DNA of 64,000 bases, taken from positions 9,476,563 through 9,540,562 of the forward strand of contig JASSKH010000014.1 of NCBI GenBank assembly GCA_031763025.1, written 5' to 3'. This document shows positions 6,716-63,781 of the stretch, piece after piece; position 1 is the stretch's first letter, and every line of letters begins with the position of its first letter. The notes below the pieces were generated by a model, which worked only from the letters and a program-made list of their open reading frames with translations, made no database searches and was not told the origin of the DNA. The position numbers and the translations under genes were made by a program. The stretch comes from Macrocystis pyrifera (taxonomy: Eukaryota; Sar; Phaeophyceae; Laminariales; Laminariaceae).

Positions 6716-9700
6716 GTGGCAAGCAGATGTGCGTTCCCAAAGCAGGCTGTGCTGTTCGCGTTTTGTGGTTGTCGTTTACTGTACAGTAACCGAACCGTCA
6801 AGACAGGGGAGGGGGTGAGAAAAGGCTCAAACCGCTGGAAACTGTGTCTCTTGAGAGCATTAGACTAGTAAGAAGCTATTAATAGTATCAGGTAGTAGGT
6901 GAGAGGAGGGGAACACCGACTGTGGATGCGCTTCTGAATGGTACCTGTTGATGTCGAAACCTCATTGCATTGGCCGTGATGACTGGGTGCAGAGTTTGGC
7001 GTCTTTCTTTGTAGTTGGTTGGTTGGTTGGTATCATGGGATGTGCGTTGAGCTTGATGCAAGGCGGCCCATCAAGACACGCAAAAAGCAACGCACACCGG
7101 CATGATCACGACTAGTAATTGAAGCGATCGACGTCCCCCGCGTGTCGTTATTGTGTTTTTCGGGGCTGTTCACGGATGGGGTCAAACCTCGCGGGTCAGG
7201 TCGAGTCGGGGAAGGGTAGACCGACCCGACCCAACCCTTGAGAGTTGGGAAACCTCTTGACCCGACCCGGTCCGCGATGTTTTAAAAAGTTCCTGATCCG
7301 ACCCGCGGGTCAAGTCTTGACCGGTGACGAGCCTTGCTTGTTTTTGTGGTTGAATGAAACGAGTCCCATTTGTTTGTCCTTGCCCCAAGGTACATAGACC
7401 GCCTTTTTTTATTAAAGGGGCTCATGCTTAATACATCGAACTCAATACACGGGACTCCCTGTGACGGAACTATCGTAGAGACACTGTTAATATTAATAGT
7501 ACGGGAGGGGCATACAGTAGCATACACAACCAACGATGAACCCAAAAAAGCACGCATCCCCCTACTCTTGTGTTTGCTCACCATATCTGTGTATCATGGT
7601 CCTGACTGCTCAGACTAAAAATAGTATGCCATGTTTACACACCATGTTTGGGTATGATGGTTCTGACTGACTACTATGCCCCCCCCCCCCCTCAATGCCG
7701 ATGTTCTCACAGTAGCTCACTTCCCGGAAATCCTGTCTGTGGTCACAAAAACAGGCTGCAGCAAAAATGCATCTCGATGGGAGAAAACGAATAACTACGA
7801 AATAGTGCGCACGGCAATACCATAGATACCAGTCCGCAAGGGAAACGGTGCTATTCGAGTCTGGTTGCTTGCGGTGGAGTGCGGGCAAGTTCTGAAACAG
7901 CATGCGCATGTATGCGATGGATGGGGGTCGTGGATCATCCATCATTGGCATGCGACGCGATTCGCAAAGGGAAAACATTTGCGTTGGGCGGACAGAGGAT
8001 GCTATCAACAGCTGTCAGATACGACAGTGGTATGTACTACGTACACGAAAAAAAGAGAAAACGGAGCCACCATTACCCTGATGTTGAAATTGAAAACAAA
8101 CTGTAAGTAGCGGGCTGGGATTTTTGTCAGAAAAAAAAAGTTTTCTATTTTTTATTTTGTTGCAGTTTTATTTTGAATGATTTTAGAATACCCCCGCCGC
8201 CCCCCCCCTGCCTGAATGAGACCGAAAAAATGTGTGGTTTCGAATTTTTTTTTCGGGTGCCCTTGGCTACGACAAATATTTATGTCCGATAGATGCTGAC
8301 TGGGCATGTGGGGAAGTACACGCTTCGTACGCGGTAAGACACCGCTGATCAGGGCAAGCACACCTTTTCGTGCGCGATCTTCACGGCGTGTTTAATCGGC
8401 GCAAGGTTCCCATTGGCTACCCTGGAACATCAAAATTCTACAAAATCTCTACGCAACCCTTACTCCAACCGGGAAGTATCCGGGTACCGGCACTGCAACG
8501 CGTATCATTGGCGCTGCACGTTGATTGTGAGCGCAAAGCTCGCCTTGGCCACTCTCGAACAATCCCGGAGAATTATTGAGAGTAAACGTGGGCGAAAGAG
8601 TAAAGAGCACGCCGGCTCGTAGACATCCGAGCGCTGACGTCTCATTTTTTTTTTTTTTTTAATTTCTCGACAGGGTTTGAATCTATCATGTGATTAGCGA
8701 CGTAGCACCGTTGACAGTATGGGCTTGGGCATGCATGCACTCAGGCTGCGATCGATCAGCGTAAAACGAACACGAGACAGACATGGGCTACATAAAGGTG
8801 TATGGCGAGAGCTGACTCGAAGCTTCCAGTGGGGCGCGATGTCGATGTAAATAAATGGGGGGGGGGGGGGGGGGGCGAACCCGTCTGTCCGTGTAACGAA
8901 TGGCGACGTAACCCACCGTTAGACAGGTCAAGGCGTGCATGCAATGAGTGCATCCATCTTGAGATCGATGTGCGCAAAATTTGTACGCGAGATGTTGACA
9001 GTTACGGATGCTGCACGGCGAAAGCAGTGGACGCATCCATGCTGCGGTCGGGGCGCCAAAAGTGTACACGAGACCTACTCGTATAGACCGGCTGAAGGCA
9101 CGGCGAAAGCAGGGGACAGGGGAAGATAGAATGGTGTTTTTACTGTCCACCTATTTTCCCTGAGGTTGTTCACTCGAGGAGTTTTTTCTTGTAGCCCAAC
9201 AAACCCAAACCATAGCTTTTGAGGGAAACTGAAAGTGTGTACCCGACGAGCAATACCATTTCTTTATTTCGCCTATTATTGCCTTCTAGAAGGTCCGTAT
9301 CTAAACAATAGAAAATGAAACAAATGATATTTCAGCGATGTATTCGGGAATTTCTCAGTTGAGAAGCCCCGTCAGTCACGAACCAACTTTTTTGCCCAAA
9401 CTGCCTCAACCGTGTTACAAGGCATGCCCTATCGCAGCACTCGTCGAAGTGAGTGGAGTTCTTGCGGGGGAGATGCCGACGTACAGCATCGGGAGGACGC
9501 AACTCGCCTGTTCGTCTCTTGAGCGGTTGGCATAGCGACTCAGACCATCCAGGTTCAGATCGATGAAATCAAAACCGGACACGAGACCGAGATCGGCTCC
9601 GGGTGTGCAAAGCGATAGCGGGGTGGAGTTCTTATGGGGACGCGATGTACACTGACAATATATACCAATGTTACACAATATTGGAGGCCCAACGAACGCG

Positions 9701-10212: not shown

Positions 10213-13200
10213 CTACTTCTTCGTCTTCTCGTCCTTCTGGCGGACGCGGATGCCAGCCAACTTGAACTCGTTGCGGGCCACGCGCCTCATGCTGTGGAGG
10301 TTCTCGCTGGCCATCTCCTGCAGTTGGACAACCAAAAGAGGCGTCCGTGAACGCAAGCGCGCGCAACCGGGGACGAGGGCGGTGGCGGAAAAGGAAACAC
10401 GTGAGAAACACTTTTTTGCGGCTATGAGTGATGAAAGCGAAAGAGCTACCGTAAATCGAGTCACGAGATAACTTTTCGCGGCTTTGGTAATAAAAGCGAG
10501 AGAGCTATACAACGCGCAAGCGCATCATTTTTTCATCTACATAACCTAATTATCCCGACGCATCGCGTCTGACCAAAGCGTCCATCCGAACGCCCTGGGA
10601 ACTCGCCCAACACTTGCGAAAATCATTTTTTTTTCTGAGTCCTGCCGTGGCGACTTACGAGTCGTTCGGCGTACTCCAGACAAGATAGCTAGGTAGAACA
10701 TAAAACCAAAACAAAAACAAAACCAGGATCAATTGACAGCACCATGTACCATACACACTTGTAGTTGTGGCACAGATAGCCTCTGCAGCACCATCTATTT
10801 TTGCGGTTGAGGCACAGGTGACATAATTGGTACCACGCATGACAACACACGCCCTCGTACGTATTTCGAAGCTGCTTTTCTCCCCGGCGGGTGAACGGTG
10901 CAAACGCCCCGGCACAGCCAGGCCTCCAGTTCCTTCGAATGCCTCCGTCGGTTTAGATATACTCGGCTCCGAAAATCGTCCCAGATACACTACACTACAC
11001 GGGAGTGCTCGCATGTGCTTTTTTTTTTTTCTCTCGACAGGTTGAGAACGGCTCAAGAAGACATCCTTGCGTTTAAGGGGGACACACTGGCGAGCGGAAA
11101 ACAAAACAAGCAGCAACGCTGCATTCCGTTCCTCTCCGAGGACATGAAATTGCCCAATGAGCATGCGTTAAGCGACGAATATGACGAAGCGCGACATAAC
11201 GCACAGTGAGTATGTTGGCAGCTTCAAGTGGGGTCAAAAAGTACGGAATGCAGCGTGCTGTCTGTCCTTTTCCGCTCGCCACGCAGGCGTTGACCCCGGC
11301 AACGAAAGGAGGGGAAACCATACCGCATACAGTATACACTCTGAAAACCGTGCGAGCCATGAAAGCATGCGTTTCCGTTTCTGGCACGTACGTGAGAGGA
11401 AATGCACAAACACGAAGAAAAGCAAACGACGAACAGGTTGGCGTTGGGCTTTGCTAAACATACCCCAGTTTCTATCGACAGAAAGAATACCAGTACTGCA
11501 CATACATCGTGGGCGAAGTGTGTGCGCGACGAGGGTCAGGTAGCAGGTATCTAGTTGAACGAAAATCGACGTATACACCATGAATAGGTATATGATGGAA
11601 TCCAAAGCGTCATCCGAAGCGATGTTGATTGCTTACCGGGGTGATCGCCATGAACTCGACGGGCTTGGCGACCTTGACGAGGGGCATCGTTACGCCCGTC
11701 ACCTAAATCGACAAGAAAGGCAAGAAGGAGACAAGGGGAGCGTGTGAAGGAAACGAAGAAATGTTGCACGTGAAAACAGAAAGGGTCAAGAGGATCAAAA
11801 AAGTTACTACATGAGTTTCGCAATGCTGGAAGCGCATGCCGACACGAAAAACAATAACCTCGGTTGAATCCCACAAAATAGCGAGTGCCGGAAATGCGGA
11901 CAAGGGAACAGCACTCGAATAAATCGCACATTGGACAAACCACGACCTAGACTGTGCAGGCGTCCCTCTTTTGTGCCGGTTGCCTGCCATAGTGCCTGCG
12001 GAATCGCTTGACGCAGACGGGAATCACCAGGTAGTCACCAAAAAAATAATGCCGGTTGTCGGTGCGGTTTATTGCCGGTATTGTTGGCCGGCGCATTGCG
12101 GCATTACCAGTATAGAGGAACCACTATTACGGGGGTCCATAGTTAATAGGACCTATGGTATAGATACAAACATATATAGATATACTTATAGATATCTCAA
12201 CCTCTGAGCGTGCTCGGTTGGTACATCCCTGGCCTCTCAGAGCTCCCACTTGGGAATCGCCTCCGTTTATTACTTGCCGGACCGTTCCAGCGGGTCTTTG
12301 TTTTCTCCATTTCTCGTCGTACTTTCAGTCCTTCTTTCCTTTTTTCTTCTTTCGTTTCGTGTGCGTGCGTGTACTCCGAGCACGGTTGCGTGGGCGAATA
12401 TTTACCTATTTTACTGACAAATTTTGGTCATGTTTACTACGGTCCCCCGAACTAGTGGAATCTGAATCCTAACCTCCCGTTATGAGATGAAGCGCAAGAT
12501 CTGGGTAGTACAGATCCAACCCCAGAAACAAGTGCTAGATAATTCCTATCGCGCAGACTACAGTGAGGCTTCCAGGCGGCAACATGGGCAATTCATAGAC
12601 CATACAGATGAGGAATCCAATCGACCCTGGAAGATCTGAACCCTTGCACCATACTGCTGCTGTGCACAAACAAAAATCTCATTCTATTTTGAAGCAAGTT
12701 GTCCTCGAGACTGAAAAGCAAGCGGCCATCACGTAAAGGGGCAATTACCTCAGTCTTGAATACTGGAGTGCAGTCCTAGAGGGGAGAGGCAATTGTCTCA
12801 CTCGAAAATCACCTAAGCAGTGCCCTAAACTGAAGTGCAGCCCATAACTGAGTATCTGTGACTTCGTGTGGAGATTTAATTACCTGGGTGGCCGCCGCCT
12901 GCTCCTCAACGGAAGAGTCGCCGGCCTTGGGCTGATGTTTGCTGCCGCGGGGGAAGACGATGAGGTTGGCACGGTACTCTTTCAGGCGCGCCACGTTCGT
13001 CACGAACGACTCCTCCTGAGAAGCCAAGATAAAGAGACCATATCGGGGGAGCGGGCGGGGAGTGAGGTTGGCAAGGAACTCTTCCGGACGGGTCATGTTC
13101 CGTCACTGCGCACAGTCGACTTCTCCAGAGAAAAAATATAAAAAAGCAATGAAGGGATGAGGGGAGGGAGGGGCGGGGGGTTAATGACGCTTTTGCGAAA

Positions 13201-16200
13201 AACATTCATCACAAACGGCTCCTCCTGAAAACGAAAAAAATAGACAAAATGGAAGGATGGGGGAGGGGGTATAATGATGTCATGCCCGGCCGTAGTCGTA
13301 TATGACCATAGAGACTCTAGCACCCCTACAATCCCGGGACGGAGCACATCGGGGAAGAGAACAAGAGCGTCAGGATTCCGAAGCAGTTACCAGAATAGAA
13401 TTAGTTTGCGCACAAAAAAGATTCCAAGATTCAAAGTAAACGTGAGGCTGGATTCCTGTTGAGAAGCGAAAAAGGACAATCCGATCCGAATATATATGTT
13501 TCCTTGTATGAACTTGACTAACCGATCCATCCGAACCACGCTTTCTGAAACACAAGGCTCCAACCGACCGGAACAAACTCAACGAAATGGTGCAACCACG
13601 AAAACGTAACACTATTTTTACCAAGCACCACAACATGGCAGGCAGAGGGCCGTCAGGGGAACACTGCACTACTGGCAGAAACAATCCCACACCAATTCCA
13701 ACGACTTTGTCCACGAAAAAAAGTTACTGAAGTTATGAACGAGTTGAGCGGCATTCCCTCGGCGGGTGGGCGGGATGAGTCTCACCGACTTGTTGGTGCG
13801 GCGGTGGTCGACGGCGATGCCGATGGTAAGCGCCACCTTCTTGGAGATGCCCGCCTCCTGTGAAGTCGAAACCCCGACAAAAAAAACAGCAGCAGCAAAC
13901 AAAGAGAATGCCACCATGAGTAAAACAAACAAAAAACGACTTCACAGGCACCGTTCAACACATGAACAGCCGTAACCTAGACAAGATAACAGAATAGGGA
14001 GCCAACCACAAATGACCGGACTAACACTCAGACAACTCCAGCTACCGTGCACTTGGCATGCTTCGACATCAAGCGAAAGCGTGGGAGGGGGGTTGTGCCT
14101 CAGACAAAACATCAGTCAAGTACACGCCATCCGTATGGAAAACCACGCACAGCCACTGACTGACTGACTCACCTTGAGCTCTTCAACGTTAAAGCCGCGT
14201 CCCAGGCGAACCTTGGAGTTGTACTGTAAGAAGGCAATAGGCGATGGCAAGGCGACACGCGAAATCAAGCAAAGGGAAGGCAGACAGGCGGGGGGGGGGG
14301 GGGGGGGTGAGCTTGACATCAGCTCGACATGTCGAAAAGAGCAGTCATCACGGCCTCTGCGCCTCTTATGATATATCCACCGACCCAGCTAAAAAAACTC
14401 ACTGCAGACGTCTCATATTTGTATCAGGTGCGATACGTGGCAACCACCGACTACAAAATTTCACTGTCCCACGCTGCAGTAAAAGTAGTACGGTAGGTGC
14501 ATGCGTCAGGGAATCAACGCCTGAGCTCGAGCATAAACCTCTCCGCTTCGAATGGGTATGGTGCCCGGTTGCAGGTCATGCAAGAAGGGCCCCTATCTCG
14601 GCAGGGGGGCTGCAAACAACTATGACTTCTTACGAAGATACTAAATACCAGTACCAAACTTGCAGTTGCGAAACTTGAACGCCAAAAAAAAGAACAGAAG
14701 CATGTCCTTCAAAATTCCTTGCGAAGGAAGTATACGTTTTAGGCCAAACCCTCATCCAAATCCAATCGAACGTTTCTTCCCACAACGGCCGGTATACAAC
14801 GGCGAATTCGTTTTCCTTTGCACACACGCCGAGAACAACCGGCTATGAACGCACGACAAAGGTCGGTCGATCCTAACGGAATCTATTTTAGAACGCGTGA
14901 CTTCTTTCTAACGGTAACGCTGAGGTGCATTTCGATCATTTAGGTGTGTTGAGATTCAACGCTGGTTCGCTGCCCGTTTTCTGTCCGAGGATGAAAGTTT
15001 AAAACACAAGACACCCGCAGCTACCGGCGTCACAAGGTCCCTGTTGCTAGTCCCGTCATGGGATGGCGAACACACAGCCATCCAGCCTCAAGAACCGAGA
15101 ATGTTCTCGTCGGACAACCGAAATAATCATTGTGTTTATGTGTTTCAGGCTGTGCACACGCACGCATGCACCACCTCGACACGAGGGCGTATGTACACAC
15201 TGCTGGGGCAGACAGGCTACACTGCTAACCCCCTCGGGAAAAAAACAACTGAGGACTTTTGTTCCAGACGCGCAGGAACTGTATGCGTGGCTCTTGCGTT
15301 ACCCGTTACACAAGGTGCAGCTTGGTCCAACTCTTACCGACTCGACCACAACGTCTCTTGAAACTGTTCTGCGCACACTCAAAGGCGGGTAGGCGTCCGT
15401 CCCACTGGCGACGACAGAGAACAAGCTTAAGGTTTGCCTTGCGGCATGGATGGCGTAACCCGCAATATCGGCGAGAAAAAGGAGGGCGTCGCGACAAGAC
15501 AAGATCGACAACCCACCCACCCTCCCCGTCTTCTCTGCGTGTACAAACAGATCCTCGGCGGGGGAAAGGAGCGGGGTAACCCCTTCGTTCCGACAAGAAA
15601 AAACGAATCAAAAGCACAACAAGACTGCACAAGGGATGAAAACTGCTCCTTCTGTACCGGCCGCCACGGTACAGAACCGACCACCAGGCCAGGGTTTACA
15701 TATATATACTCAACCTCAACCCTCAACAAGTCAAAAACAAGGGGCGCAAGCCTAACGTTTCACAGGTCACCACGACACGGCAGCAAACAGCAGCCTATGG
15801 GGTACGTGTAGCAAATCAGGGTTTAGATTCTAAAAAAATACGAAAAAAAAAGGTTGCTATGGACACCGGAGCTTATTCCGAACAATCACACCTCTCACAC
15901 CTTTTGAACATTTATTAATATTAATAGAAAGGGTACACGAATAATCGAATGTCAAGTATTCCACAATGTAAAAAAAAATGGACCTGGAGCGTACCTTGAT
16001 CGTAGGGCAATGCACGGCCGGCCGCAGGAGCTGGGTAGGGCGCGGTGCCATCTTAGCCGCCTTCTCCTGGCGAACTTGGCGGCGCGCCTTCTTCTTGGCC
16101 GGCTGTTGGGATAAATTTCCAAGAAAATTCGACGAGTTGCGGCGCGAGTGAGGCAAGGAAGGGGGAAGGCACAGGGCAAACCAAGAAATTCGGCTCATAG

Positions 16201-19200
16201 ATTGATAGTTGTCGGGTACATACTGGTGTATGGTTGGTTTACGGTGGGTAAAGTTAGGTCGTTGTCGAGTAGCGGATAGAGTCATCGCGTTGTCGAGCAA
16301 TGGGTAGGGCGGAGTTCCATATCGCAAAGGTACGCATACGGTACGAAGTCCCCGCTAAGTTACCAACACAATTTGTATCAACATCAACATCATGGAACAT
16401 TTTCGTCCTCTAGTGCCCACCTTGTCTGCACACCGAGGGGCTCACACGCAGCAAAATCACGGGCATCCTCAAACGGATACATCCCCTCATCTCGTCTTCA
16501 AGGTCTCGCACGACGGGTTTCTCCCGTTGCAAAATAGGGTGCTGGGCCATTGCCGACAGCTCCTAGAGTCGACTCGAAAACGTTTCTACACGGCCCACAC
16601 GGCATAATTACGGGCTTTTCGAAAATGGATGCATTCCGTCATCCCGTACTCGAGGTTCCGCATGACGTGCTTCTCCCGTTGCGACATCGCATGCTGGGCC
16701 ATTTCGATAACGACTCGAGGAGCTATCGTAAATGGCCCAGAGCACCCGATGTTGCAGCGGGGGAGAAGCCCGTCGTGCGGGACCTCGAGCACGGGATGAC
16801 GGAATGCATCCGTATGAAGAAGCCCCTGATGACATGGGTGTTAAAAGTAGATACGTGTGGAAAGTCGATGTCGAGAGCATGGGCGAAGGAAGGGTGCGTG
16901 TGACAAACGGTGCGTTGACTGCTACGGTGACGCCATTAACGCTATTATTACGGGGGACCATAGTAAACAGGACCTACGGTACACACAAAAAACCTACATA
17001 TTTACCTATTTTTACTAACAATATTTGGTCCTGTTTACTATGCCCCCCCGTAAATAGTACTACGGGAGGCTTCGTATAGCAATCAGAACCCACCATAGAC
17101 CCAAAAGTCCTAGCATCTCTTGTGCTCACTACCCATGCGTGGTTCTGCTTGATGCTGTATGTTCCGCCGTGATACTGACGGCGGCCAAGTGCCATCAGGT
17201 ACCAGATCAATTAAAAACGAAATTGCCTACTCGTGTACCTGGTACCCGGTAAGGGTTCAAGCATAGCGTGGTCACTACCCCTGGGCATTGTGCCGTACGT
17301 GCCCAACCTCCCGCTTAGAGAGCGTGGCATCAGGCTATGTACGTTGTGCGCACTGCGGCAGAAGGTGATACGAGTAGGCAAGCCGTACGCACATACGCAG
17401 TCGAGTTGCTAGCGATTGCCCTTTCCTTCAGTTACACGTTGAATACCGGCACACAGATTTCGACGTCAATTTTACTTTCCAGCTTAATTCGTAGGATGTT
17501 TTACCCTCAGTCATCTTCCGGACAAGCCGTGGTCACAGGTGTCGTCCCTTCTCGCCCCCGGTACGTGCCTTTTTTTATTTCCTTTGTCGCGCATAGGGTT
17601 CAGCATTCCCACCGCTCGTCGATTTTCATCGAATGTTGCTAAATCACGCTCTCGCGCTGTCCGCACATCACATTACATGCAAGAAAAAGTCCTTACTAGT
17701 GTGCACTCGGTGAGACTCGAACCCACGAAAGTCATCTTAGTAGCACGCGGACCATCTTTCCAAGCCACCGGGGACGCCGTCGACAAAACGCAACAGGTTG
17801 CGCTTCTTGCCTCTACGAGCAACGCAATACAACAACTGGAAACTCCAGTGATGTCTAGGATCGCTATACTTGGCTTCGATTGCACTCTACTGCCGCAGCA
17901 CTTCTGGTATTTCGAACGTAGTATAAATACAACAGCAGTCTACCATTACATTAGAGCGGCACGGTCATGGTCCGCTCCGGAGACCTCGCCTGGAGTGTAC
18001 AGCGTCAGCGTCGTTCTGGGCGCGGTTAGTAGGTCCTCGACGTATCGAATGGGTCTCTGAATGGTGCCACTCTACCGCTGTAGCTGTATCTGTATCGAAA
18101 CCCAACAAGCTTTGCCGTGACACCATTACGCGGGGAAGGGTCGATCGACAGCCGTGCGTGCAAGCAGTGCATATTCGACTGTTTCGCTCGACGAATGGTT
18201 CGCTTCCAGGAGGAGCCTGAGTCGCATTGCTCACTGCTCACTGCTGCATTGATAGTACTCCAGATGTCCAACAGCAAGTGTGTGTGTAAGGTGACGCGTG
18301 TAACGATAGACGTACTACTGCTGTACCTTTTTTGACCGAAATATTATGACCGACGTGGCTACTATTGATGGACTGACGAACTATTATTAATAGTAACTGT
18401 CGACACCCAACATCGTCGGAACACCGTTACCAGGTACCTGGTACTATTCAACCTTCATTTCGTGATATAACTACTCAATCCGCAGTTTTCATCCGGTCAA
18501 GGTCATCTCCAAAAAAAAGGTTTGGTGTGAGGTACATTTCTCAAGTCTTGTAGGACTGCAGTCCCGTTTCGGTGACAAACTGCTTAGAATTTGACTGGTT
18601 AGTCTCCAAAACTGATCTATAAAGAGACTGCAGTCCTGAAAGGGTTGGTTGAGGGGTTTCACATAAAAAAAAGATAGGTGAAACCCTGCCACAGCATGCC
18701 TCAGGTGAATAGCACGCGCGATCCACGTACCTTCAGCAGTATTACGCGCAGCTTGCAAATGTCAGTTAGTTTCGACTCACAATTCCGTAAATCTTCGATA
18801 TTACAGCTGGTGTGTCTTGATGAAAAAAATCATATTCGGGGCTGCAAGGGCTTTCCAAAAGCAGTACAAACTCCAACCGCTAGGAGTCTCAATGCTTGGA
18901 GCATTCGAATCGCACCCTCTCGACGGACACGGCAGGCATGCCAGGCAAAGAGGGGTTACGAAACAAATCATCCAACTCTATGTTATATCAGTCACATATA
19001 AACTCGTAATATGATACCTGGTATTAAATATCTGATACTACAGTAGTAGGAATAAGCGTTTTGAGGCTCTTCGGAAACGACTCTTTTTCGGAAACGAGGT
19101 CAAAGGTTCATTCATTGAGACTATATATAGGCACACGGGGTACAGTAGAACCTATAGTACCTGGTAACGGTTAATGACCTTCAATCTGCCCTTGATGTTA

Positions 19201-20890
19201 CGGACCCCCTGCAACCGTAAATACGGGGATTGGTTCTATTATCCCCGGGGTTTCCATTATACCATGCAATGTATACTCTAAATGTTTCAAGAATACGAGC
19301 ACAGGAACCAGACCCATACCATCAAATTTACCCCTGGACAAGCGCACAAGCAATAAAAAAAGATAATAGCCCAGACTCTGTTGATTTCACCCACTCGGCG
19401 GCTCGTAACCGGTTATTACCGGCATCGAGACTGCCATGCCTGGTACACCTTGTACGTCAGATACGTACGATATGTACCTGCTACAAGAGAACGTGAGAGT
19501 GGAGGCGCTGCTATTACTACTGTAGCACACACGTGCCTTCTAACGGTAATCTAATTTAGTAGCAGCATGAGGAGCAGAGGTGCATCGTGTTCGAGTATAA
19601 TAGGAGGGGCGTCGTGCAAAATACTGCTGCTATCATACTGCTGCTCTAGGTCTCGGTGCAGAAATACGGCAGAAACAAAGGAAGTACGGACTGAACGTCT
19701 ACACTATTAATACTGCTGTATTGTAACCTGCAGTCTCACATTCACAAGCGTTTATACATTTGGTTGTTCATATAGCTCAGCTACTCGTAGTCTGCTACTA
19801 TGTACTGCGTTCTTACCATGCGATATCGACAGTTTGTGCAGGAAGGTGCAATCTGGCTGCTGGGCTATCGAGGATATGTGTACTTCTGCTGTACTGCTGT
19901 ACATCTACCCCAGGGGCAAGTCGAAACGACTGTCTACTACCAGTATACGAGTACTCGCTCAGTCCCACTGCAGTTGTGGGGACCAAACACTTGGAATTAG
20001 AGTCGAGGTTGAGGGTTATGTGCAGTGCGGCAGTAAGAGAGTTCGACACGCCTCAATCAACCTATGCCGTTAATGAGTGTTATTACGCTATTACACTGCT
20101 GCACCTTCAGACGGAAACCGATGACCTTGGCAGCAGGCAAGTGATGTGTCTTCTACTCCAAATTCACGACACTACGAGTTACCGCGCAGCTGCTGTACGA
20201 ATGTGAAAAGGTACGAGGCCTCTCGCATTATTGCAGCAGCGATTGTACACTTGTTACACATCCCAGCATGACCTACCGGCAGAAATTGTTTTTAGCTGTT
20301 CACCTAAGAAGGCACGACATCATTAGGGCGGTGCGTGGGTGCATATAAAGTCTCCTCGAACTCGTCGACCTAGAGGGGCCGCCTCACGACGTGCAGTAAC
20401 AACATGGTAACAAAAAAACCAACTGCTGTTGTTGGACCACAGCCAATCCGCTCAGCGTAGTTTGGTCTTGCTTCACCACCCAATACTAATTGTGAGGCGA
20501 GAGGCGACGTCTCGATAATTCATGGTCACATCATGGACATTCCCCAATCTAATGCTGACTTGTCGCACGATAATCCATCACAACACTACCAAAGAAGCTG
20601 CGTGGAAGCTGGAACTCTCCCGGCTTTGGCCCATCTCGTCAACGCAAACCTCACTCCTCTGTCAACATCAGCGGTGTTGCTCCAAGAGCCATTCCCCTCT
20701 ACTGCTGTACGGTTGTCTAGGTCAAACAAGTCGTCTCTGTTTGCTTTGATTTGGTCCAGACAAGAAGTTCCTGTCCTTGCTTGCAACAGTTTGCGGGGCT
20801 GTTGCTCACCTGGTCGAACCATGTCCGGACCCTCCTCTGCCACTTCTTGTGGAAATGGCCGTTAGGCACTACGTTGTTGTGCTTAACCAT
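10213..20890 (-). CDS. RPL13: Large-subunit ribosomal protein eL13 (RPL13), 7 exons
   Basis: Structural protein of the cytosolic 60S subunit. Exons in coding order: 20810-20890, 15995-16102, 14173-14223, 13786-13857, 12884-13015, 11637-11702, 10213-10317; 204 codons plus TAG. Every intron is phase 0 with GT-AG borders. Family landmarks: the N-terminal [16 protein letters not shown] (residues 12-27), [18 protein letters not shown] (45-62), [13 protein letters not shown] (68-80), [14 protein letters not shown] (91-104), the [15 protein letters not shown] segment (114-128), and a basic C-terminus KDEKTKK. The length matches the usual 200-211 residues. The start is the ATG in GTTAGCCAAGATGG, 227 bp from the divergent FIS1 start. 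Intron 1 is 4.7 kb, extreme for a ribosomal protein gene, and is filled with TIR elements, a long hairpin and other repeats. Decayed copies of the exon 5 start lie in intron 4. Confidence 0.96.
11985..12122 (+). repeat. Dispersed TIR repeat 'atagtgcc', copy 1
   Basis: Shares CCATAGTGCCTGCGGAATCG, then GCCGGTATTGTTGGCCGGC, with copies at 35.61 and 40.67 kb. It ends at CCAGTATAGAGGAACCAC, matching the GGGGACCAC terminus of the 40.8 kb copy. It lies in RPL13 intron 5, directly beside a TTACGGGGG element. Confidence 0.65.
12125..12454 (+). mobile_element. TTACGGGGG-type TIR element, copy 4, split by ~200 bp insert
   Basis: Left half (TATTACGGGGGTCCATAG, then AATAGGACCTATGG) is at 12125-12180. 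The right half (TTACCTATTTTACTGACAAA, then TTTACTACGGTCCCCC) resumes at about 12402. The intervening ~200 bp is unrelated to the family and is not recognised. In RPL13 intron 5. Confidence 0.75.
12480..12625 (-). mobile_element. GATCT-rich TIR element, partial copy 3
   Basis: Partial inverted copy: CAGATCCAACCCCAGAAACA, GTGCTAGATAATTCC, then AGGCGGCAACATGGG. The TIR ends are not clear. In RPL13 intron 5. Confidence 0.55.
13016..13230 (-). pseudogene. Decayed tandem copies of the RPL13 exon 5 acceptor region
   Basis: Upstream of exon 5 (minus strand) the start of that exon recurs twice. Near 13180-13227 the minus strand reads TTTTCAG then codons for EEPFVMNVF, matching the true exon's EESFVTNVA. 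Near 13045-13130 the text aligns with the exon again and includes [11 protein letters not shown] against [11 protein letters not shown]. Both copies have lost the downstream frame. They look like relics of local tandem duplication within intron 4. Confidence 0.65.
13272..13350 (-). repeat. Poly-C-linked dispersed repeat, inverted partial copy
   Basis: CATGCCCGGCCGTAGTCGTA, then TATGACCATAGAGACTC and CCCGGGACGGAGCACATC, match the inverse of the 1.6 kb and 28.8 kb units. In RPL13 intron 4. Confidence 0.6.
14290..14308 (+). repeat. Poly-G tract
   Basis: An ~18 bp G run in RPL13 intron 2. It is one of several G/C homopolymers of 12-20 bp across the window (also near 5183, 7679, 8858, 33786 and 35225). 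Confidence 0.8.
16465..16575 (+). repeat. Direct copy of the 16.6 kb hairpin arm
   Basis: Resembles the arm at 16612-16710: GATACATCCCCTCATC, GGTCTCGCACGACGG, TTTCTCCCGTTGC, then GTGCTGGGCCATT. It makes three related ~100 bp units in a row, the last inverted. Confidence 0.7.
16612..16825. repeat. Long inverted repeat (hairpin), ~100 bp arms
   Basis: The left arm starts GGGCTTTTCGAAAATGGATG and the right arm ends CATCCGTATGAAGAAGCCC. Arms share ATGCATTCCGTCATCCCGT, CTCGAGGT.CCGCA.GACG, GCTTCTCCC and TGGGCCATTT, roughly 85% identical by eye, with a loop of about a dozen bases. It would be transcribed inside RPL13 intron 1 and could fold into a ~100 bp stem. Confidence 0.8.
16946..17056 (+). 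mobile_element. TTACGGGGG-type TIR element, copy 5
   Basis: Nearly consensus: TATTACGGGGGACCATAG, ACACACAAAAAACCTACA, TATTTTTACTAACAATATTT, then TTTACTATGCCCCCCCG and TAAATA. In RPL13 intron 1. Confidence 0.93.
18551..18637. mobile_element. CTGCAGTCCCG TIR element, copy 1
   Basis: Left end TAGGACTGCAGTCCCGTTTC and right end GAGACTGCAGTCCTGA form an imperfect TIR of about 17 bp around a short interior. Relatives lie at 24.5 and 39.5 kb. In RPL13 intron 1. Confidence 0.72.
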
Positions 20891-39893: not shown

Positions 39894-39962
<69 letters not shown>

Positions 39963-44994: not shown

Positions 44995-45225
44995 CTACTG
45001 TTACTGTATGATCTAGATCCTTCGGGGCAGATAGATTCATGATCTGCACGATCTAGCTCGCGTTGCCGAGTGGGAGCCGTATAAAATCTGCATGATCTAG
45101 GACATGCACCCGGGTTGGATGTGTGCTGTGCAGATCCTGCATGATAAATCATAACGGCAGGTTAGGATCTAGATCTACCGTATTAATAGTGTACAGTAGT
45201 AGATCATGATCTGTCCGATGTGTAC
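44995..45225 (+). mobile_element. GATCT-rich TIR element, copy 8
   Basis: ATCCTTCGGGGCAGATAGAT, GCGTTGCCGAGTGGGAGCCG and CATGATCTAGGACATG; ends ATGATCTGTCCGATGTGTA. It carries TATTAATA at 45181, close to its right end. Confidence 0.75.
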
Positions 45226-46228
45226 GTTATTCCCCGGTGTCTTCTCCCCAACAAAAACAGCCACACTCGTATTGTTACTATTAATAAACCCTCTTGAGAC
45301 TTGAGAGGGGAAAAATGACGAAAACAAATGACGATCGGGAGGTGACTGACGTTGTTGGTGTCCGAGTAACAGCAGTGCGAGGAAGTCGCACGGCACGGGC
45401 CCATCATGATGCTGCTTCCACTGCTGGGAGCCCCTGCTGCTCGTGGACTGTTTGTGACACAAAGCTGACATTTTGGTGGCTGTGTCGGGGTCCCAAAGGC
45501 GTCGAGAGGGGGGAGGTTTTTCACTGTGAATTTTGAGCTCCAATCGCGGCTTGCGTTTTTTTGCACAGCTGGACACCCTGCGTTACGCTTACTTGAGTAC
45601 GCCCGACACCCTCTACGGCACACCGTAAAACAATAACAAAAGATACGTGTAGATACTGCTGGGGTTCCTCGCAAACCAACCAATCATACCGTCACCAGAC
45701 CCGACACAAGGTCGGCTTTTTTGCGCTTTTAAAATTTGCTGAGCACGCAGAACCGTTCGTTGCTTCGAAGGACGGACTATGTGAAAAGGGGGAGTTGAGT
45801 GGTTAACAATGCACCCTGAAGCGATGTAGACTGCTGCTGTAGATGGATGGTAGGTCTATTTTAAGGGTCTTTACGAAAAAAACGGTGCATCTGCCTATTT
45901 GGATCCTAAACAGGTACGTCTGGTTGGTCAACTGGAAATCGAAAACAGAACCAGGTGATACAAGGTACAATGGATCTTGAGTGTATTTCAACAGCAAAAA
46001 TGCTGGCACACCGCAAAGTGTTTACTTGATCAAGCCAAGCTTCACCAGCATAATTAACGACGTCTTCCACAATCCGCAAATACATGGTATACCTTTTATG
46101 ATGCATGTCGGCATTGTATGCATTGACGCGCACAATAAAGGGGCAGCTTGCCTCGCAGCTGTGTCTTACAAAGACATGTTGAAATAAAGGAAGTCGCTCG
46201 CACGACCGTCCAATTTTATGAAGAAAAA

Positions 46229-46250
46229 AACACACACACACACACACACA
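46229..46250 (+). repeat. (AC)n microsatellite
   Basis: About 11 AC units after a short A run. Confidence 0.9.
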
Positions 46251-53600: not shown

Positions 53601-53679
53601 CGGTGCTGACCCTTCGGTGGCCGCACTTGCGGTGTGGAGGAGCTGTAGTCTACGTGTACACTGGCTCGGTGATACCATC

Positions 53680-55195: not shown

Positions 55196-58100
55196 CTAGG
55201 CGTCCTTCTTCTGATTTCTTGCGACGGCCATGAGGGACAGCATCTCGAACACGATGTTCGCCCCCAGCTGAGCAGTAATATCTGCCGCAACATACGGTCG
55301 ATGACGCGAAACGGAGTCGAACAACACAGATGCTGGTGAACAGGGAGCACGGCGGCTGATAACAATGTCGACCACGACGGTGCCATGATCGGGACTGAGA
55401 GTCAACGCACACAGAAACTTCTGCTGGGCGTACACCGCGGTCCGACGATATATTGGGGACGGTGTGTACTATGAACGCAAGCTGCTACCAGTAGCGTCAA
55501 CGCTAATGGTGGTTCAGCCCTACACATAGTACAGATCATACGGCTAAAGTTGAGCGTCAGCATAACGGTGAAAGCAACGAAAGATCACGCACACCAACAA
55601 TAATAGCTCGGTTTCGTTTCGGTCTGGTTTCGTTTCGATTTTTCTTTCGGTTTCATTTCGGTTTCGTTTGGTTGTGGTTTTGGTTTCGGTGCGATTCCGT
55701 TTATTTTCGGTCTCGTTTGTCCTTTGTTCCGTGGTGGTTGTGATTCTGTTTCATGTTGGGTTCGTTCGAGTGTGGTTTCGGTTTCGTTTGTTTTCGGTTT
55801 GTTTTCGGTGTTGCTTTGGCTTCGGTTTGTTTTCGGTTTCGGTTCGGTTTGGTTTCGATTCCGACTCGTACCGCAGTGACGCAATAGTTCAGTAGGTAAA
55901 ATAATCGATATTCGTACTGCTGTACGGCAACTATTAATAGTGCGTCTCACCAGCGTGGTCGTAGGCGGGTGCCACCTCGACAACGTCCCCGGAAACTATG
56001 TTGAGCCCCTTCATCGACCTCAGAATTCGGATTAGTTCCCGCGACGAGAAGCCGCCCACCTGCGCAACACAAAATCCAGTCGCAGAGCGGGAGAGCGTGG
56101 TCAGATCGCCACACACAGCAGTCAAGAAAAAAAACTACGTAGCCAACAGCAGTACGTAGAGCCAGGGCGTCGGGTGCTGATCGAATCGATTTCAAGCGGA
56201 TGTAGCGGGGAGGGGACGGGAGAGAGGGGGCTGCCGACGCAAGAAATGCCGCTCGGACAAGAAGCGAAGATTACATGGGCTCAAAAATTTCACCCCTACC
56301 AGGTTCCGCTTCCGCGGCATTCAGATAGACAGACGTGGGGCGACGCGAGTTGAAATTCGATGAGTTTTTGTGAATAGCTGCCGTTGAAAAAATGAAGACT
56401 ACCCAGCACACAAGACAAAAGGCATAACGACCAGCGACGTGAAACCGGTACATATTCCTACTTTGCCATCGTGCGGCGCTTCCTACCTCCGGAGTTCCCG
56501 TTCCCGGAGCAAAGGCGGGGTCGGCCACGTCGATGTCCAAGCTCAGGTACACGGGGCCCGTCCCCACGCGTCCCCTGATCTTTTCCGCCACCCAGTCGAA
56601 ACCGTTGTCGTCCAGCTCCGAGCAGAAAATCGTTTTCAGGCCCTGAGCGAAAGAAAATAGGACGAGCAGCAGTTAGTGGATTTCTTCTGTTTGGCCTACG
56701 CGACTTCTCCACGCCGACTTGCCTATTCTCTTCGTTGTATCGTGTTTTCGGAAGAGAAGGGATATGCGCACACTCCTGTTATTACACGCAGTCCAAAGCA
56801 TATAGTAATCCAACGGACGTCACTGAACGTGATCCTTGTTTATTTAGAAAAAAACGCAATTCGAGCGACAGACGCACAAGTCAGACTAAAAAGCTCCGCG
56901 AAATTACCGCGAAATTGCCACACGCAACCGGCTGTAAATGACTACTTGGTACTTGGTAGCCAACGGATAACGAGTCGGCGACATATAGCCCAACGAGGAA
57001 CTCATAACCCCAGAGATACGTATCCCACTCACCAGTTCGGCGTCAGCAGTGATGTCTTCGTGGTCGTTCACCGACCCGCGGATGCCGACGTGCATTGACC
57101 TTGATGTGTCGATCAATCCATCCTCTATCGCCTGTCCAGAAGCACGAAAAAATGGTGAATATTAGGAGGGAACATAACTATACATATCTACTGTAGATAC
57201 TATTTCCCCCCGTAATGGAGAGCAGGAAGGCGGCAGTAGCAGTAGTCATTTGATACTCAACCAAGCGATGTCGATACTTCACAAGCGAGGTCGAGACTTG
57301 CCGTACCATGTGATGTCTATTCTTACCATGCGATGTCGAAGCTTACCTTACCAAGCGGTGTCGAATGTTTCCAAGCGACGTCTATACTCAACAATGCGGT
57401 GTCGATAACTACCAAAAGCGATGTCGACTTCAACCAAAAGCGATGCCGACTCTCAAACCATCTACGTAGAACTCGTGGATTGTGACGACAAGCCATGAAA
57501 GGTAGCAAACGCTGCTGTATCGCAGTTTTCATTTCTCCGAAATAAAAAAGTGTATGCCCACCCAGCACGTTTTTCGTTTACCACCACCGATGGACACTAC
57601 ACCAACGTAGTACACACCACTGTGCTCTGTGCTGCATCTCAACTCCATGGTGGGAAGCGAATACCTCACAACCATTAGTAGGCCGTACATAACCTGCACG
57701 AGGCGAACCCCCCTCCCCGGCACCTACCCCGCCTTCCCTCCACCCTCAACTCATCTCCAAACAACTGGGTCGTACAAAACCTAGGCGAAGCCCCATCCCC
57801 GCCACCCGCCCCCCTCCCCTCCACCCCCGCCAACTTACCCGCTTGAAAGGAGTCCCGTGTGTGCATTTCTCCCCGAAGTACTCGTCCCACGTATCAAAGT
57901 GGCTGTCGAAGTGAACAAGAGACACTGGGCCGAACTTATCGCTGATAGCCTATTGATGGGGCCCCGACAGTTAAAAACAAAATCCGAACAAGGAGGTTAG
58001 TACATGAGTTAGGAGGCATGTTTTGGTAGGGGGGGTATATGAGCTACGAGGCATGTTTTTTAGTTGGGCGGGGGGGGCTGGCTATGTTTTTTATGCTCTC

Positions 58101-61100
58101 CGCACGAGGAGCTCTCCACCTCTCATCTAAACAGACAACTTTCTTCGAGAACAATTGTCCATCACACATCTCATTAAAACACTTTTCCTCGAGAAAAGTC
58201 GTTCACACATCCCATAAACAACATACCTGGAATATAACACAATTCGGACTGCAAACATATTGGTTACATATATAGCTCCTTACATGAGAACGGGGCTCCG
58301 TCAGGACTAAGGAATAACTACTGTAGCCCGCATTGTCATAATGTGTACGTTTCGTCCTAGGGCCGTGCTTGTCGAAGCAAGTTTTGTCGAATCTTTCCGC
58401 TTTTTTCGTTTTCTTGTTTTCCAACACAACAACAAAAAAAAAAACGTGGGAGTAAACTCTGGAAAGATCAACAGGGTGTAAAAACGTTTAAAAAAAAACA
58501 CTGGAAAAAAACTCGAGTTTCCACGTCACGCTTGAATCAGGGTTTGGGATAACGAAAGGCGCTCGCCACGGGGAAGGGGTAGGATATGTGTTTAAGCAAC
58601 ACGTTTCGGTTAAAAAAAATATCATTCGAACAGTTGTAGAGGCGTTCACCTTGAGGCAGGGGTAGGAAATGGTGTGGTCCCCGCCGATGATGACGACGCC
58701 TTCACACCGCGACAGAACCGACCCCAACCCACTCGAGATCTCGTTGATGGCCTGTGCCCAAGGCGAAGGTGGAGGAAACGAAAAGCAAAGTACAAACCAG
58801 ATACCATTTAAAAAAAAAAAAAAAACTCCCCAAGGTATTCTCTTCCACTCGAGCGCTTTGGGAGACTGTCCTGTGATCATGGACCGGAATCTTCAGCGTT
58901 AAAGGAGGGCGCTCTGGGCGCCTGAGGAGTGTAGTTGCGGTCGTCCTGTATTTTTCAGACCACTCTGAACCGAAATATTGGGACCGTCAGTATATAATTA
59001 TTGAATCCAAACGGTCCTTATATTTTGGGTCAGAGTGGTATGCTTCTGCCTTGTTTAAACTTGTCTTTGACCTATCTATGTGTTATGTGTAGGTTGATGA
59101 GTGCCGTTCGGAGAAGAGCGAGCTAATTGACGTGTAGCTGGTGCTGTAGTTCCGCTGGGATCGTACATCGCGCAAGGAGAACGTATAGTAGTTTATCTGC
59201 TGTCGGCGACCGATCCTCGACATAGTCACGCTTGGAAAATTACGAGGGAGGACCACAGCAGTACGCGTGACCGCGTGACACATCAATCATGACCAAAATC
59301 GTCATGGTATCATCGTCTGGAACGCGTGCGCATTGCCCCTTTTGACTTGTTTATAGTATATCGACCATAATAACGACTAAATAATGCGGTATCATCAATC
59401 CTATACTAAGGATGTAAGCGCGAGGGAGTACGAGTGCTATTACGGGGGTCTATAGTTAACAGGACCTATGACATACATAAAAACCTATATATTAAGGTAT
59501 TTTTACTAACAACATTTGGTCCTGTTAACTATGGACCCCCGTAATACGTTCCCACTATAATATTACATAGTAATGAAAACCCAATATGCACCCAAGAACC
59601 AGGTATCCCCTTACGTTACACACACCAAATTTAGTCCTGATTACTACAGTATGTTCCCCATTACGCTGTGCTCTGTTTTATGGACAAGTCCCTGTATCGT
59701 AGCTCGAGCCTGAAGCCTTCGTAACTGATGCAACTGCTGCAACTGCTGTAACTGCTTACATTGCATAAAGACTTTGGGGACTCTGTATTTGTAATATTGT
59801 CAAAGTATACAGCAGTGTTGGACACCGGATAGGGGATGTCGATATCGGAATCGAGTTCGATACGATACCGCAAGAAAACTGTCGTAATCAATACGATTTC
59901 GACATTTGATAGATGACGCTTTCGTTCAATCTCTGCGTAGAACACACGGGAAAATGCCAAGGGATGGAGGGCAAAGCACGCTCGATACGGCATATTATCA
60001 ATAATTCGATATTTCGATATTTCGATGTATCGATATCGATATCCAACAACTATCAAAAGTAGTATTAATACAGCAGCAGTGAAGGAGAGTGAATATCTGA
60101 TCGCTGCAACAGCACGGTCGCACCTTCGGGATGTTGAAGGGGTTGCAAGGGATGTCGCCGTAGTCCACGACCTGCATGCCGTTGAACGGGTACACCTCCG
60201 TGCCCATGTTGTACCTTTTCTCGCGCATAGAAAAAAAGCGAGATCGATCCCAGGAAAAGTGGTCGGGGAAGTCAAGAGTAGTATTTTTCGCTTTTGTTGG
60301 ACAATCAATGCCTATGCTTCTGGTATGGGTACGATACGAGTTCGAGGAGAGGTACCCATGGTGCACCTTTTCTTGTGTAGGTAGGAATAGGAGATCGAGG
60401 AAGAGACGCTTGGAATGTTCTCCGTGCTTTCGTTCTGTTCTGGTTCCCAAATGGAGTATATATTAGTACGTATGTACTCGTGTGCCACTGGCTGGTCTTC
60501 TGAAAGGCGCGAAATTAAAAACGAACAGAAGATAGCTTTTGAACGGCAGAGGCACGTGAGAGGCGCGGGGACTTACCAGTCAGATGCTTTGGCAATAGCA
60601 GAGGGCATGTAAAAAGCGCGGGATCAAAACTCAAAACCAACGGCAATCGGATGCTTCTTGCAGCAGCAGAGGCATGTAAAAAGGCGTGCGACTAAAAACC
60701 AGCCCGATTTGATTTTGAAAAGAAACATGCAGACGGCGCGGGGTCAAAAACCGGTAAGATGTTTTGGAACAGCAGAGGCATGCATGAAGAAAAGCGCGGG
60801 ATTTATCACCATTCAGGGGTTTCTTGAAATGTCAGCGGCATGGAAAAAGCGCAAGATCGGAACCCAGCCAGACATTTTTGCAACATCAGACATCAGAGGC
60901 ATATGTAAGCAGGCGCGGGATCAGAACCGGTCAGATTTATTTGCAACGGCAGAGGCTGCGCTGCACGTAGAGCGCGCGCGGTGGCTACTGCGAACAACGA
61001 GCCGCATGCGTCTGTTTCGCTGCCTCCATGCAATAAAGTCAAGCCAGGAACATGTACACGAGGGCGTTAGAAAGGCGATATAATTCCGTTTTTGGTGTCC

Positions 61101-63781
61101 CTTTAATTCTTTCTTATTTTGGGGAATGTTTTTGAGTGGTCGACGTTGATTTCCAATATGCTAACAACTCATTGTCGGATGGCAAACACCATAATTGGGG
61201 GGGTGGTATTGACTGTGAGTGTTAGTAGATATTACGGGGGACCATAGTTAATAGGACCTACGGTACACACAAAAACCTATATATTTACTTATTTTTACTA
61301 TTAATAACAATATTTGGTCCTATTTACTATGGCCCCCCCGTAATAGTAGGTATAGTAGATGGTAGGTATATACCGCGGGGTAAACGAGGTACCAAAGGAG
61401 AGAGGTGTAAGCAGGAACCTTCAAGAAGAGTAACGGGGCGGAAGAGAAACTGCTGTTGTAGTACTGTATCAGAGAAAATTCGATGCCAGTCGGAATGGAC
61501 CATGTACGAAACATTGTCGAAGGGCAAACAAAAAAATCACTATTAACCGCACACCGAAATCTGCGGATGGACATTGTCGTCAGGAGAAGAAGTCTACGGG
61601 ACGCTACTAACAGGGAGTATAGGCAGAAGTCCATCCTGCTGGACGTCACCCATGTTGACCGTCAAGCGCAGATACACCTGTAAGAAGGCAGTGCTGTTCA
61701 CGATGGATCAGCAGCCTCTACCTCTGAGGCGCGCAATCGCCAACACTACGCTCGTCCGGGACATGTGTGCCCTTTGACGAACGGAGTCACAAACTTGTTA
61801 CTTTAGCAGTGGAAAGCTTTGGGCATCTCGAGGTAGAGGGCAGTAAGTTCATCGATCAGCTGGCAGCTAGTGTCGTGGGGGGGGGGGACGGTGGGTCGAT
61901 AGGAAGGAAAGGAGTGGTGAAGGAACGCCTACTCCAAATCGTCTTGGTGACTACACAGTTCGCCATCTCGAGGAGGGTATCGCGATTCAAACTCCAGCTT
62001 AGGGGTCGACGGGAATCGAGAAGGAGCAGGGGGGGGGGGGGAGGATGACAGATCCACACCGATGGCGTGGGGATGGAGCTTGGATGCGGCTCATGATTCA
62101 AGAATAAAACGTCAAGAGTACATATTGAGATAGAGGAAGGAGCAAAGACAACAAATAGAGTATCGTAGATGAAGCATAGGAGGAAGTAGACATAGAAGGC
62201 AGATATACCTCGTGCATTGGTTTCCTTTGTTTCCGGGGATTTCTTCTTTCAAGGAATGTTTTGAGTGATCAACGTTGAAGCTCATGCAGCACATTGTCGG
62301 ACGGCAAGCATAATAATAATGATCACAATGACAATATTAATAATACGTCTTCTCCGTGGTAACATGTTTCGACCAACAACGCCGCTAGACAGGAACACCC
62401 TAGTAGAAGCTGCTGTTGCAAAAAAAAGTGACCTCACAATACTACCAAGTAGTGTCCTCCCACACAAAACGTGGGCGCCAGCAAGCACGGAAAGGGCGCG
62501 GCCAGGTGGCTAGATTTACAAGGGCAAATAAAAAGCCAGCAAGCACAAAAATGGTGCGACCAGGGGGGCAAGGAATCTTTTAGTTAACGCTCACCTTCGA
62601 ATCAGGCGAGAAGCGCAACGGATGGCCTCGGGGCCGAACCGCGCCCCCGGCCTGTACGTGCACCCGGAGTCGAAAGGGATGCCCACCACGGCCACATCAA
62701 AGTTGGAAACCTGAACGGGATTGGATGTGTGTGTTGTAGATATACACACCGGGGGAGGGGCATATGGGAACAGAAATAAGGTGAAAAGACCGCGGGGGTT
62801 GAGCGAGGATGGCGACTACCAACAGCAGGCCGGGATACGCGATCGTTGGCCAGATTCCACGTGTAAACTACCCCGTGCTGATAATCGATACCCACTTTTG
62901 ATGATCGAGATCTTTCAGGGCAGATATATAGCTAGATAGATCCCTGATCTGTATGATCTGTAGGATTTGGCTCATGTTGCCGGGTGGGACCCGCAAATCC
63001 TGTTCGATTTAGCACATGTTTGCTGGGTTGGATATGTACTACGCAGATCCTGTACAACTCTCACAACGGCAGGTGAGGATCTACGGTAGACGATCTATCT
63101 GTTGACAGATCAGATAGATCGATCATGATCTACCCGATTCGTCTGAGATGTGAAACAATCGGCAGCGCCAGCGCCGACGGCACGTGTATTGACAGTCTAC
63201 ATACGCATGCCCGCGCAAATGGTGCATGTCTAGGGGGGGGTCCCACCGAAATATCCCTGCAGTGCTTGCCAGGGATATCGAAAAAACAATAGATTTTGTC
63301 AACACCCAGAACGCATATGTTTGACCCACCCCCAGCGATCGGACCGGTAGCCCCAAGTGATCGGATCAAGGGGTTGAAATTTGTTTCCTGTCGACGACCG
63401 GCATATTTCAGAGTAACTTCTTAGGAATGGAGCTGAAAGTATTACGGTACAGTAGCCTAGGACACACACTGCCCTATTTAAAAACAAGAATAAGAATGAG
63501 AACTTGAGGCCGGCCCAAAACAAGAGTTTCACTGATGCTAAAACTTCCTTTGACTTGTTCCAATGAGCTTTTCTCTTAAAACGTGGGTGTAGGTCTGCTT
63601 ATAAATGGGATAGAGGGAACATGCCAACTCGGAAGTGTTGTCGTGTACGTCTTTATCATACCTCGTGAATGCTCGGGAGACGTGCGTACGTAGAAAAGCC
63701 ACAGTAGCGGGGGTAGACGCTCGGATCCGGCTGCCCGATCATTCCGGTATCTGAGACCATGCCTGCATCGGCGCGGTGCAT
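55196..63781 (-). CDS. AGMAT: Agmatinase-family ureohydrolase, 9 exons
   Basis: Predicted Mn-dependent hydrolase releasing urea from agmatine (to putrescine) or a related guanidino compound. Exons in coding order: 63662-63781 (5' limit uncertain), 62595-62710, 60124-60214, 58650-58751, 57839-57949, 57033-57131, 56487-56642, 55951-56059, 55196-55281; 329 codons plus TAG from the ATG at 63781. Introns are GT-AG. Motifs: [14 protein letters not shown] (about 23-36), [20 protein letters not shown] (50-69), [12 protein letters not shown] (metal His), [16 protein letters not shown] (metal D-x-H-x-D, with Ser for the usual Ala), [27 protein letters not shown] (metal D-x-D and substrate loop), [20 protein letters not shown] at the end. 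All metal ligands are present. Agmatinase is favoured over arginase by the [11 protein letters not shown] and APGTGTPE signatures; other guanidino-hydrolases remain possible. Confidence 0.94.
55608..55862 (+). repeat. GGTTTCGTTT-type minisatellite
   Basis: A degenerate ~10-12 bp unit (TCGGTTTCGTTT) repeated over 250 bp in the last agmatinase intron. On the minus strand it reads as a Lys/Thr/Glu-Pro-Asn repeat peptide, which is an artefact. Confidence 0.92.
57244..57465 (+). repeat. ~25-bp minisatellite 'accaagcgatgtcgatact'
   Basis: About nine imperfect copies of CAACCAAGCGATGTCGATAC with CGAGGTC, CGGTGTC and CGACGTC variants, in agmatinase intron 5 (between exons 5 and 6). Confidence 0.88.
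58959..59039. mobile_element. ACCACTCTGA TIR element
   Basis: Left CCACTCTGAACCGAAATATT, GGGACCGT; right ACGGTCC, TTATATTTTGGGTCAGAGTG, G. ~27 bp TIRs enclosing about 25 bp. Single copy in this window, with no obvious target duplication. In agmatinase intron 3. Confidence 0.8.
59438..59546 (+). mobile_element. TTACGGGGG-type TIR element, copy 9
   Basis: TATTACGGGGGTCTATAG, ATAAAAACCTATATATTAAG, TTTTTACTAACAACATTTGG and GGACCCCCGTAATA. In agmatinase intron 3. Confidence 0.93.
60500..60965 (+). repeat. ~65-bp degenerate minisatellite
   Basis: Seven or eight imperfect units of GCGCGGGATCAAAAACCAG, TCAGATGTTTTGCAACAG, CAGAGGCATGTAAAAA in agmatinase intron 2. The plus-strand open frame across it (60658-61083) is repeat-derived. 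Confidence 0.85.
61230..61345 (+). mobile_element. TTACGGGGG-type TIR element, copy 10, with internal TTAATA
   Basis: Best-preserved copy: TATTACGGGGGACCATAG at left, GGCCCCCCCGTAATA at right. Its interior reads TTTTTACTATTAATAACAAT where other copies have TTTTTACTAACAAT, a gain of exactly TTAATA at TA. In agmatinase intron 2. Confidence 0.95.
61309..61316. repeat. TATTAATA scar inside a TIR element
   Basis: The extra TTAATA interrupts the ACTAACAATATTTGG block that is intact in copies 5 and 9, so the ancestral TA target is known. Confidence 0.82.
62450..62575 (+). repeat. Short tandem duplication 'gccagcaagcac'
   Basis: GCCAGCAAGCACGGAAAGGG, CGCGGCCAGGTGGC and AAGCCAGCAAGCACAAAAAT, GGTGCGACCAGGGGGGC are two related ~60 bp units next to agmatinase exon 2. 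Confidence 0.65.
62870..63155 (+). mobile_element. GATCT-rich TIR element, copy 9
   Basis: GCTGATAATCGATACCCACT, GATCTTTCAGGGCAGATATA, GTTGCCGGGTGGGACCCG, TTGCTGGGTTGGATATG and ATCCTGTACAACTCTCACAA, ending ATTCGTCTGAGATGTGAAAC. In agmatinase intron 1. Confidence 0.78.

Follow-up and report, generated by a model that had tools for sequence, protein, structure and literature searches.

This stretch of 64,000 nucleotides of Macrocystis pyrifera DNA (the window, to which all coordinates refer unless a locus is named) raises the question of why the palindromic octamer TATTAATA recurs in it so often, and whether it is, as the initial annotation proposed, the footprint left by resident transposable elements. 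Seventeen exact copies are present in the window, which is 50.5% GC. One hundred dinucleotide shuffles gave a mean of 0.55 copies and a maximum of 2, none reaching 17, so the strong excess claimed at the outset is upheld; among the 16 AT-only palindromic octamers TATTAATA ranks first, the runner-up having 5 copies. The original count was also right, and 15 of the 17 starts had been placed exactly, the other two each being off by 10. The enrichment is present genome-wide. In 537,376,219 bases (223 contigs), the octamer occurs 94,130 times, about 12-fold more often than its reversal, a word of equal composition with 7,522 occurrences. An order-6 Markov model of both strands of a 288-kb sample did not single out the word (94 observed, 68 expected), because its sub-words are also enriched. 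The sites in the window, to which no strand is assigned, are as follows.

6877..6884: TATTAATA, exact match, probable scar
7491..7498: TATTAATA, exact match, probable scar
15913..15926: TATTAATATTAATA, two overlapping octamers (starts 15913 and 15919), probable double scar
18385..18392: TATTAATA, exact match, probable scar
19705..19712: TATTAATA, exact match, probable scar
24781..24788: TATTAATA, exact match, probable scar
40022..40029: TATTAATA, exact match, probable scar
40308..40315: TATTAATA, exact match, probable scar
41496..41503: TATTAATA, read as a scar, with a paralogue at 41613-41642
42257..42264: TATTAATA, read as a scar, within a single unit of a tandem array (approximately 41.93-42.29 kb)
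45181..45188: TATTAATA, exact match, probable scar
45279..45286: TATTAATA, probable scar (initially placed at 45289)
55932..55939: TATTAATA, exact match, probable scar
60063..60070: TATTAATA, exact match, probable scar
61299..61306: TATTAATA, read as a scar, within a MITE copy (initially placed at 61309; plain TA in other copies)
62335..62342: TATTAATA, exact match, probable scar

The candidate source is a family of near-palindromic MITEs of about 105 bp with the layout TA-TTACGGGGG...CCCCCGTAA-TA, which had been described correctly for the copies in the window. The TA target site duplication expected of the Tc1/mariner superfamily is present at the copies. Exact TATTACGGGGG ends number 33,213 and 33,392 on the two strands of the genome (66,605 together), compared to 107 and 105 (212) for the reversed sequence. 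The commonest TA-bounded terminal inverted repeat in the sample is TTACGG, with 20 pairs; the second, TTTGCG, has 12 pairs and is confined to one locus, L027. That locus has a local repeat at 171-1300, seen there alone in the sample, in which TA-bounded TTTGCGACACGC is oriented both ways (12 pairs). A scan of viral contigs for the MITE end gave no match, and a search of the genome for the DDE_3 transposase domain (PF13358) also gave none. The copies and ends in the window are listed below.

3018..3142, minus strand: MITE copy whose ends are slightly degenerate; the equivalent internal TA has TGTTAATA, perhaps a scar that has mutated
3944..3952, plus strand: exact TTACGGGGG end, opposite end degenerate
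12127..12135, plus strand: exact TTACGGGGG end, opposite end not found
16948..17053, plus strand: TTACGGGGG-family MITE copy
21780..21887, plus strand: TTACGGGGG-family MITE copy
24207..24311, plus strand: TTACGGGGG-family MITE copy
25725..25828, plus strand: TTACGGGGG-family MITE copy
59440..59544, plus strand: TTACGGGGG-family MITE copy
61232..61343, plus strand: MITE copy hosting the octamer at 61299

The footprint predicted by the initial annotation, TA-TT-AA-TA, matches the ends of this family, being the duplicated TA placed around the terminal bases. The element would insert at a TA, preferably in an ACTAGT-like context, and duplicate that dinucleotide. A transposase supplied in trans would later cut the MITE out, leaving on the chromosome two terminal bases from each end (TT, and on the opposite strand TT, which reads as AA). 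Two TT overhangs are unable to pair, so end joining would retain both and generate TA-TT-AA-TA. We infer from the sequence a 2-nt 3' stagger (cleavage two bases inside each 5' end), end-joining repair and a transposase of the Tc1/mariner type, a superfamily described as leaving 3' overhangs of 2 or 3 bp (PMC3878927). TATTAATA is very probably, in the main, the excision scar of the resident TTACGGGGG MITE family. An identical octamer would result from excision of another TA family with TT...AA ends, and such a family may be present elsewhere in the genome.

The predicted footprint does replace a TA in homologous repeat copies. For six of the 46 octamer sites in the sample (three of the six in the window) there is a paralogue that carries two bases where the octamer would be, overlapping self-matches having been removed, which lowered the number of empty sites from 11 to 6. 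The two bases are TA in five of the six and CA in the other, the paralogue of the site at 41496. Two of the 46 sites have a paralogue with the same octamer, one of these also being among the six. In the tandem array, one unit reads ACTAC-TATTAATA-AACG and seven other places have plain TA; only the empty and scarred states are found there. When copies of repeats were compared without reference to any word, TTAATA was the largest class of 6-bp insertion, at 6 of 41 loci (the next class having 5), although only four of the six are exact octamers, and insertions of 4-5 bp include four larger classes (9, 9, 8 and 7 loci). It might be proposed that the octamer is the ancestral target sequence, or the result of TTAATA slippage, and independent of excision. 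Double copies, TATTAATATTAATA, do occur, at 15913 in the window and in at least one insert at the MITE TA described below. The homologous empty sites, however, have no TTAATA unit from which to slip, and the flanks of the octamer show the target preference of the MITE, so we attach next to no probability to that proposal.

The same paralogue test was applied to 13 control octamers. Empty paralogues were found for five of them, TATATATA (4/46), TACTGGTA (3/18), TACTATTA (3/28), TATTTTTA (2/32) and TACGAGTA (1/25), and for none of the remaining eight. Three of the 13, TACTGGTA, TACTATTA and TATATATA, come near the rate of TATTAATA, and the paralogue rate alone therefore does not separate TATTAATA from other words. 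TACTGGTA may itself be a scar, and TATATATA may be a microsatellite. TATTAATA is distinguished by the exact change from TA to TATTAATA together with its context. At one pair of paralogous sites (L012:3075 and L021:~2067), different words, TACCAGGTA and TACTGGTA, occupy the same place.

At one TA within the MITE itself, TTTTTAC-TA-ACAATATTTGG, the alternation of TA, octamer and inserted element that excision would produce was found among paralogous copies. This site is empty in 10,041 places in the genome. TTTTTAC-TA is followed by a MITE end in 1,041 places, the host being identified by its left 7 bases alone; three such nested elements are in the sample (L021, L028 and L020), and for those in L028 and L020 one base of the flanking TA is altered. 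Between 1 and 16 extra bases are present at the TA in 692 places. The first 100 of these, taken in contig order and not at random, include 26 that hold the MITE's own upstream T-tract, which were set apart by a rule devised after the list had been viewed. Among the remaining 74, exactly TATTAATA was the insert in 15, and no other insert occurred more than three times. Allowing one mismatch raises the number to 21, and in five more the octamer lies within a longer insert, one of them a double scar. The four scarred hosts inspected (61299 in the window, L029, L030 and L031) differ from each other elsewhere, which argues against the amplification of one scarred copy. The uniformity of the insert also bears on whether the MITE, a near-palindrome, could have been lost as a hairpin through replication slippage or nuclease action, with no transposase involved. 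Palindrome instability has been raised as a cause of loss of Stowaway elements (PMC1925063), but remnants formed in that manner should vary in length, whereas the one octamer recurs here at least five times as often as any other of the 74 inserts; such loss is very unlikely as the source of TATTAATA.

Scars would be expected to carry the target preference of the element that made them, and they do. The three bases upstream of the octamer are T45 A54 C47 (94 flanks), and those upstream of the MITE end are T52 A60 C68 (62 flanks). The deviations of the two sets from ordinary TA flanks have a correlation of 0.85, computed with one duplicate locus taken out, and none of 5000 resamplings of TA flanks reached the octamer's mean flank score. 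By this score TATTAATA ranks fourth among the 52 TA-NNNN-TA words that occur 12 times or more; above it are TACTACTA, TAACAATA and TAGTAGTA, which we interpret as trinucleotide repeats and as a word within the MITE. These flanks also bear on the proposal that TATTAATA is a protein-binding site maintained by selection. It is palindromic and abundant, and a comparable palindrome of Phytophthora, TACATGTA, has been interpreted in that way (PMC3520976). A binding site would have no need of MITE target flanks, however, and TATTAATA replaces TA both in MITE copies at dispersed locations and in a single tandem-array unit; we consider selection for binding extremely improbable as the explanation.

If the octamer is a scar, the numbers of scars and surviving elements can be compared. 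The initial annotation had proposed that, on this reading, the window would record many more excisions than surviving copies, of which it counted 10. This holds in the window, with 17 octamers to 8 paired short elements, but not in 20 other 10-kb stretches (200 kb in all) of the same contig, C194, where 27 octamers were found and 35 elements. For the whole genome the estimates are approximately 57,000 MITE copies (exact ends, scaled) and 87,000 scars (94,130 minus 7,522). Taken from the 20 stretches and from the genome, respectively, the number of scars per copy thus ranges from about 0.8:1 to 1.5:1, which places the window towards the upper end. Within the MITE, at TTTTTAC-TA, the occupied state exceeds the scarred, unlike in the genome as a whole, with 1,041 left junctions to perhaps 100-140 scars, the latter extrapolated from the contig-ordered list and the two patterns not being equally strict; young hosts are a possible cause. 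Our confidence in the excision reading was lowered slightly on re-checking, owing to the control octamers and the ratio of scars to elements, and remains high.

Twenty stop-to-stop open reading frames of at least 70 amino acids in the window contain an octamer, 11 of them being at least 100 amino acids long. A Pfam scan of 10 of these 11 gave one match above the curated cut-off, an exon of ribosomal protein L13e at approximately 15986-16150 on the minus strand (PF01294, E 7.5e-13). The octamers at 15913 and 15919 are on the far side of an apparent GT splice donor and are therefore probably within an intron of this gene. As far as these 10 frames show, the earlier statement that no octamer lies in an exon may hold. 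A retroelement RNase H domain (PF17917) is encoded at 50312-51022 on the minus strand.

TATTAATA is outnumbered by another TA-bounded word, TACCWGGTA, which has 121,279 occurrences in the genome compared to 2,421 when reversed. There are 19 in the window, at the following positions.

TACCWGGTA: 1106, 1203, 2988, 3241, 3276, 17236, 18428, 18435, 19015, 19158
TACCWGGTA, continued: 21386, 21393, 24680, 27227, 27428, 40354, 40835, 42283, 54896

This word is found at another TA of the same MITE, AAAAACC-TA-TATATTTACC, which has extra bases in 719 places. The first 100 of these include TACCWGGTA 38 times, TACCAGTA or TACTGGTA 8 times, TACCAGGGTA 3 times and TATTAATA not at all. The first 100 at TTTTTAC-TA, by comparison, gave TATTAATA 20 times, and no listed row there had TACCWGGTA (Fisher's exact test, 20/0 against 0/38, rows in contig order, 5e-16). 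The flanks of TACCWGGTA are unlike those of the MITE, with A47/G34 upstream, and neither a dominant terminal inverted repeat nor an abundant parent element was found for it in the sample. TACCWGGTA is likely to be a second class of scar, one that would derive from 5-base overhangs. A three-base class, TA-NNN-TA, is led by TACWGTA (100) and TACSGTA (85), the class mean being 31. A hairpin element of 71 bp, bounded by TA and ending in CCGCAGTCCCG, is present at 39513-39583 in the window and at L021:2814; with a 3-base stagger it would predict TACSGTA, which is among the commonest TA-NNN-TA words. Separately, L015:1473-4947 is a large inverted repeat (about 3.4 kb) whose two arms share identical 18-mers.

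Two putative scars at different TAs of one MITE suggest a broader reading, in which its thousands of copies keep a natural record of the excisions that different transposases have carried out. The genome would then hold a scar vocabulary written by several families. TATTAATA would come from the resident MITE; TACCWGGTA would be due to another family that is rare or extinct today and has overhangs (CCAGG/CCAGG) that would pair except at the centre. Other abundant TA-bounded palindromes of stramenopiles, such as Phytophthora TACATGTA, may likewise be scars and not regulatory motifs. We offer this reading tentatively, as possible but a little short of an even chance.

Excision footprints of related elements provide a comparison. 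The footprint of Tc1 in C. elegans is TA-CA-TG-TA (Eide and Anderson 1988, quoted in PMC3520976), and the two systems are alike in the TA target duplication and in the retention of both two-base overhangs in an eight-base palindromic scar. They differ in that Tc1 footprints are called rare in C. elegans (PMC3520976), whereas the kelp octamer is present 94,130 times, and in the ends of the element, those of the MITE being TTACGGGGG. Stowaway MITEs of the Triticeae, and Osmar5, are also TA-bounded and have empty sites with remnants of 1-4 bp of the terminal inverted repeat (PMC1925063), but a single intron there was reported to have five distinct putative footprints (PMC1925063), whereas in kelp one octamer is the commonest of the inserts listed at the site examined. 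Excisions of DNA transposons in rice were, as here, recognised through sequence comparison (PMC4423477). Eight of 94 were 'perfect', ie exactly two copies of the target were left, and the others had deletions or filler (PMC4423477). TATTAATA would not be 'perfect' by that definition, and the rice data pool several superfamilies, so the contrast is only indicative. The Sleeping Beauty footprint, C(A/T)GTA (PMC3878927), resembles TACWGTA, the most frequent kelp TA-NNN-TA word; Sleeping Beauty belongs to the three-base class, and TACWGTA has no established parent in kelp.

Among the open-licence papers matched and listed, in titles and the first part of abstracts, no account of these scars was found, whether the subject was TATTAATA, the terminal inverted repeat, MITEs or excision in brown algae, MITE and mariner footprints, TACCWGGTA, or TACATGTA with Tc1, and a search of open-licence papers for genome-wide excision scars found nothing. 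Three listed papers that contain the octamer deal, by their titles, with other matters. The word 'mite' is absent from the main text of the giant kelp assembly paper (PMC10498591). Footprints of the Tc1 type, Stowaway remnants and rice excisions are known; the scale, and the recording of two scar types by one repeat, were not found described among the matches listed. The Phytophthora palindrome TACATGTA lies upstream of 12,070 genes, and a footprint reading of it was set aside on account of its conservation and abundance (PMC3520976). The kelp case suggests that abundance alone is no argument against that reading. An abundant palindrome near genes is not necessarily a regulatory site, and TACATGTA can be tested by the paralogue method. 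The footprint studies cited here proceeded locus by locus and often met varied outcomes. In this kelp a single family seems to have left an identical eight-base scar tens of thousands of times over, which would make excision history, target choice and repair outcome readable from one assembly.
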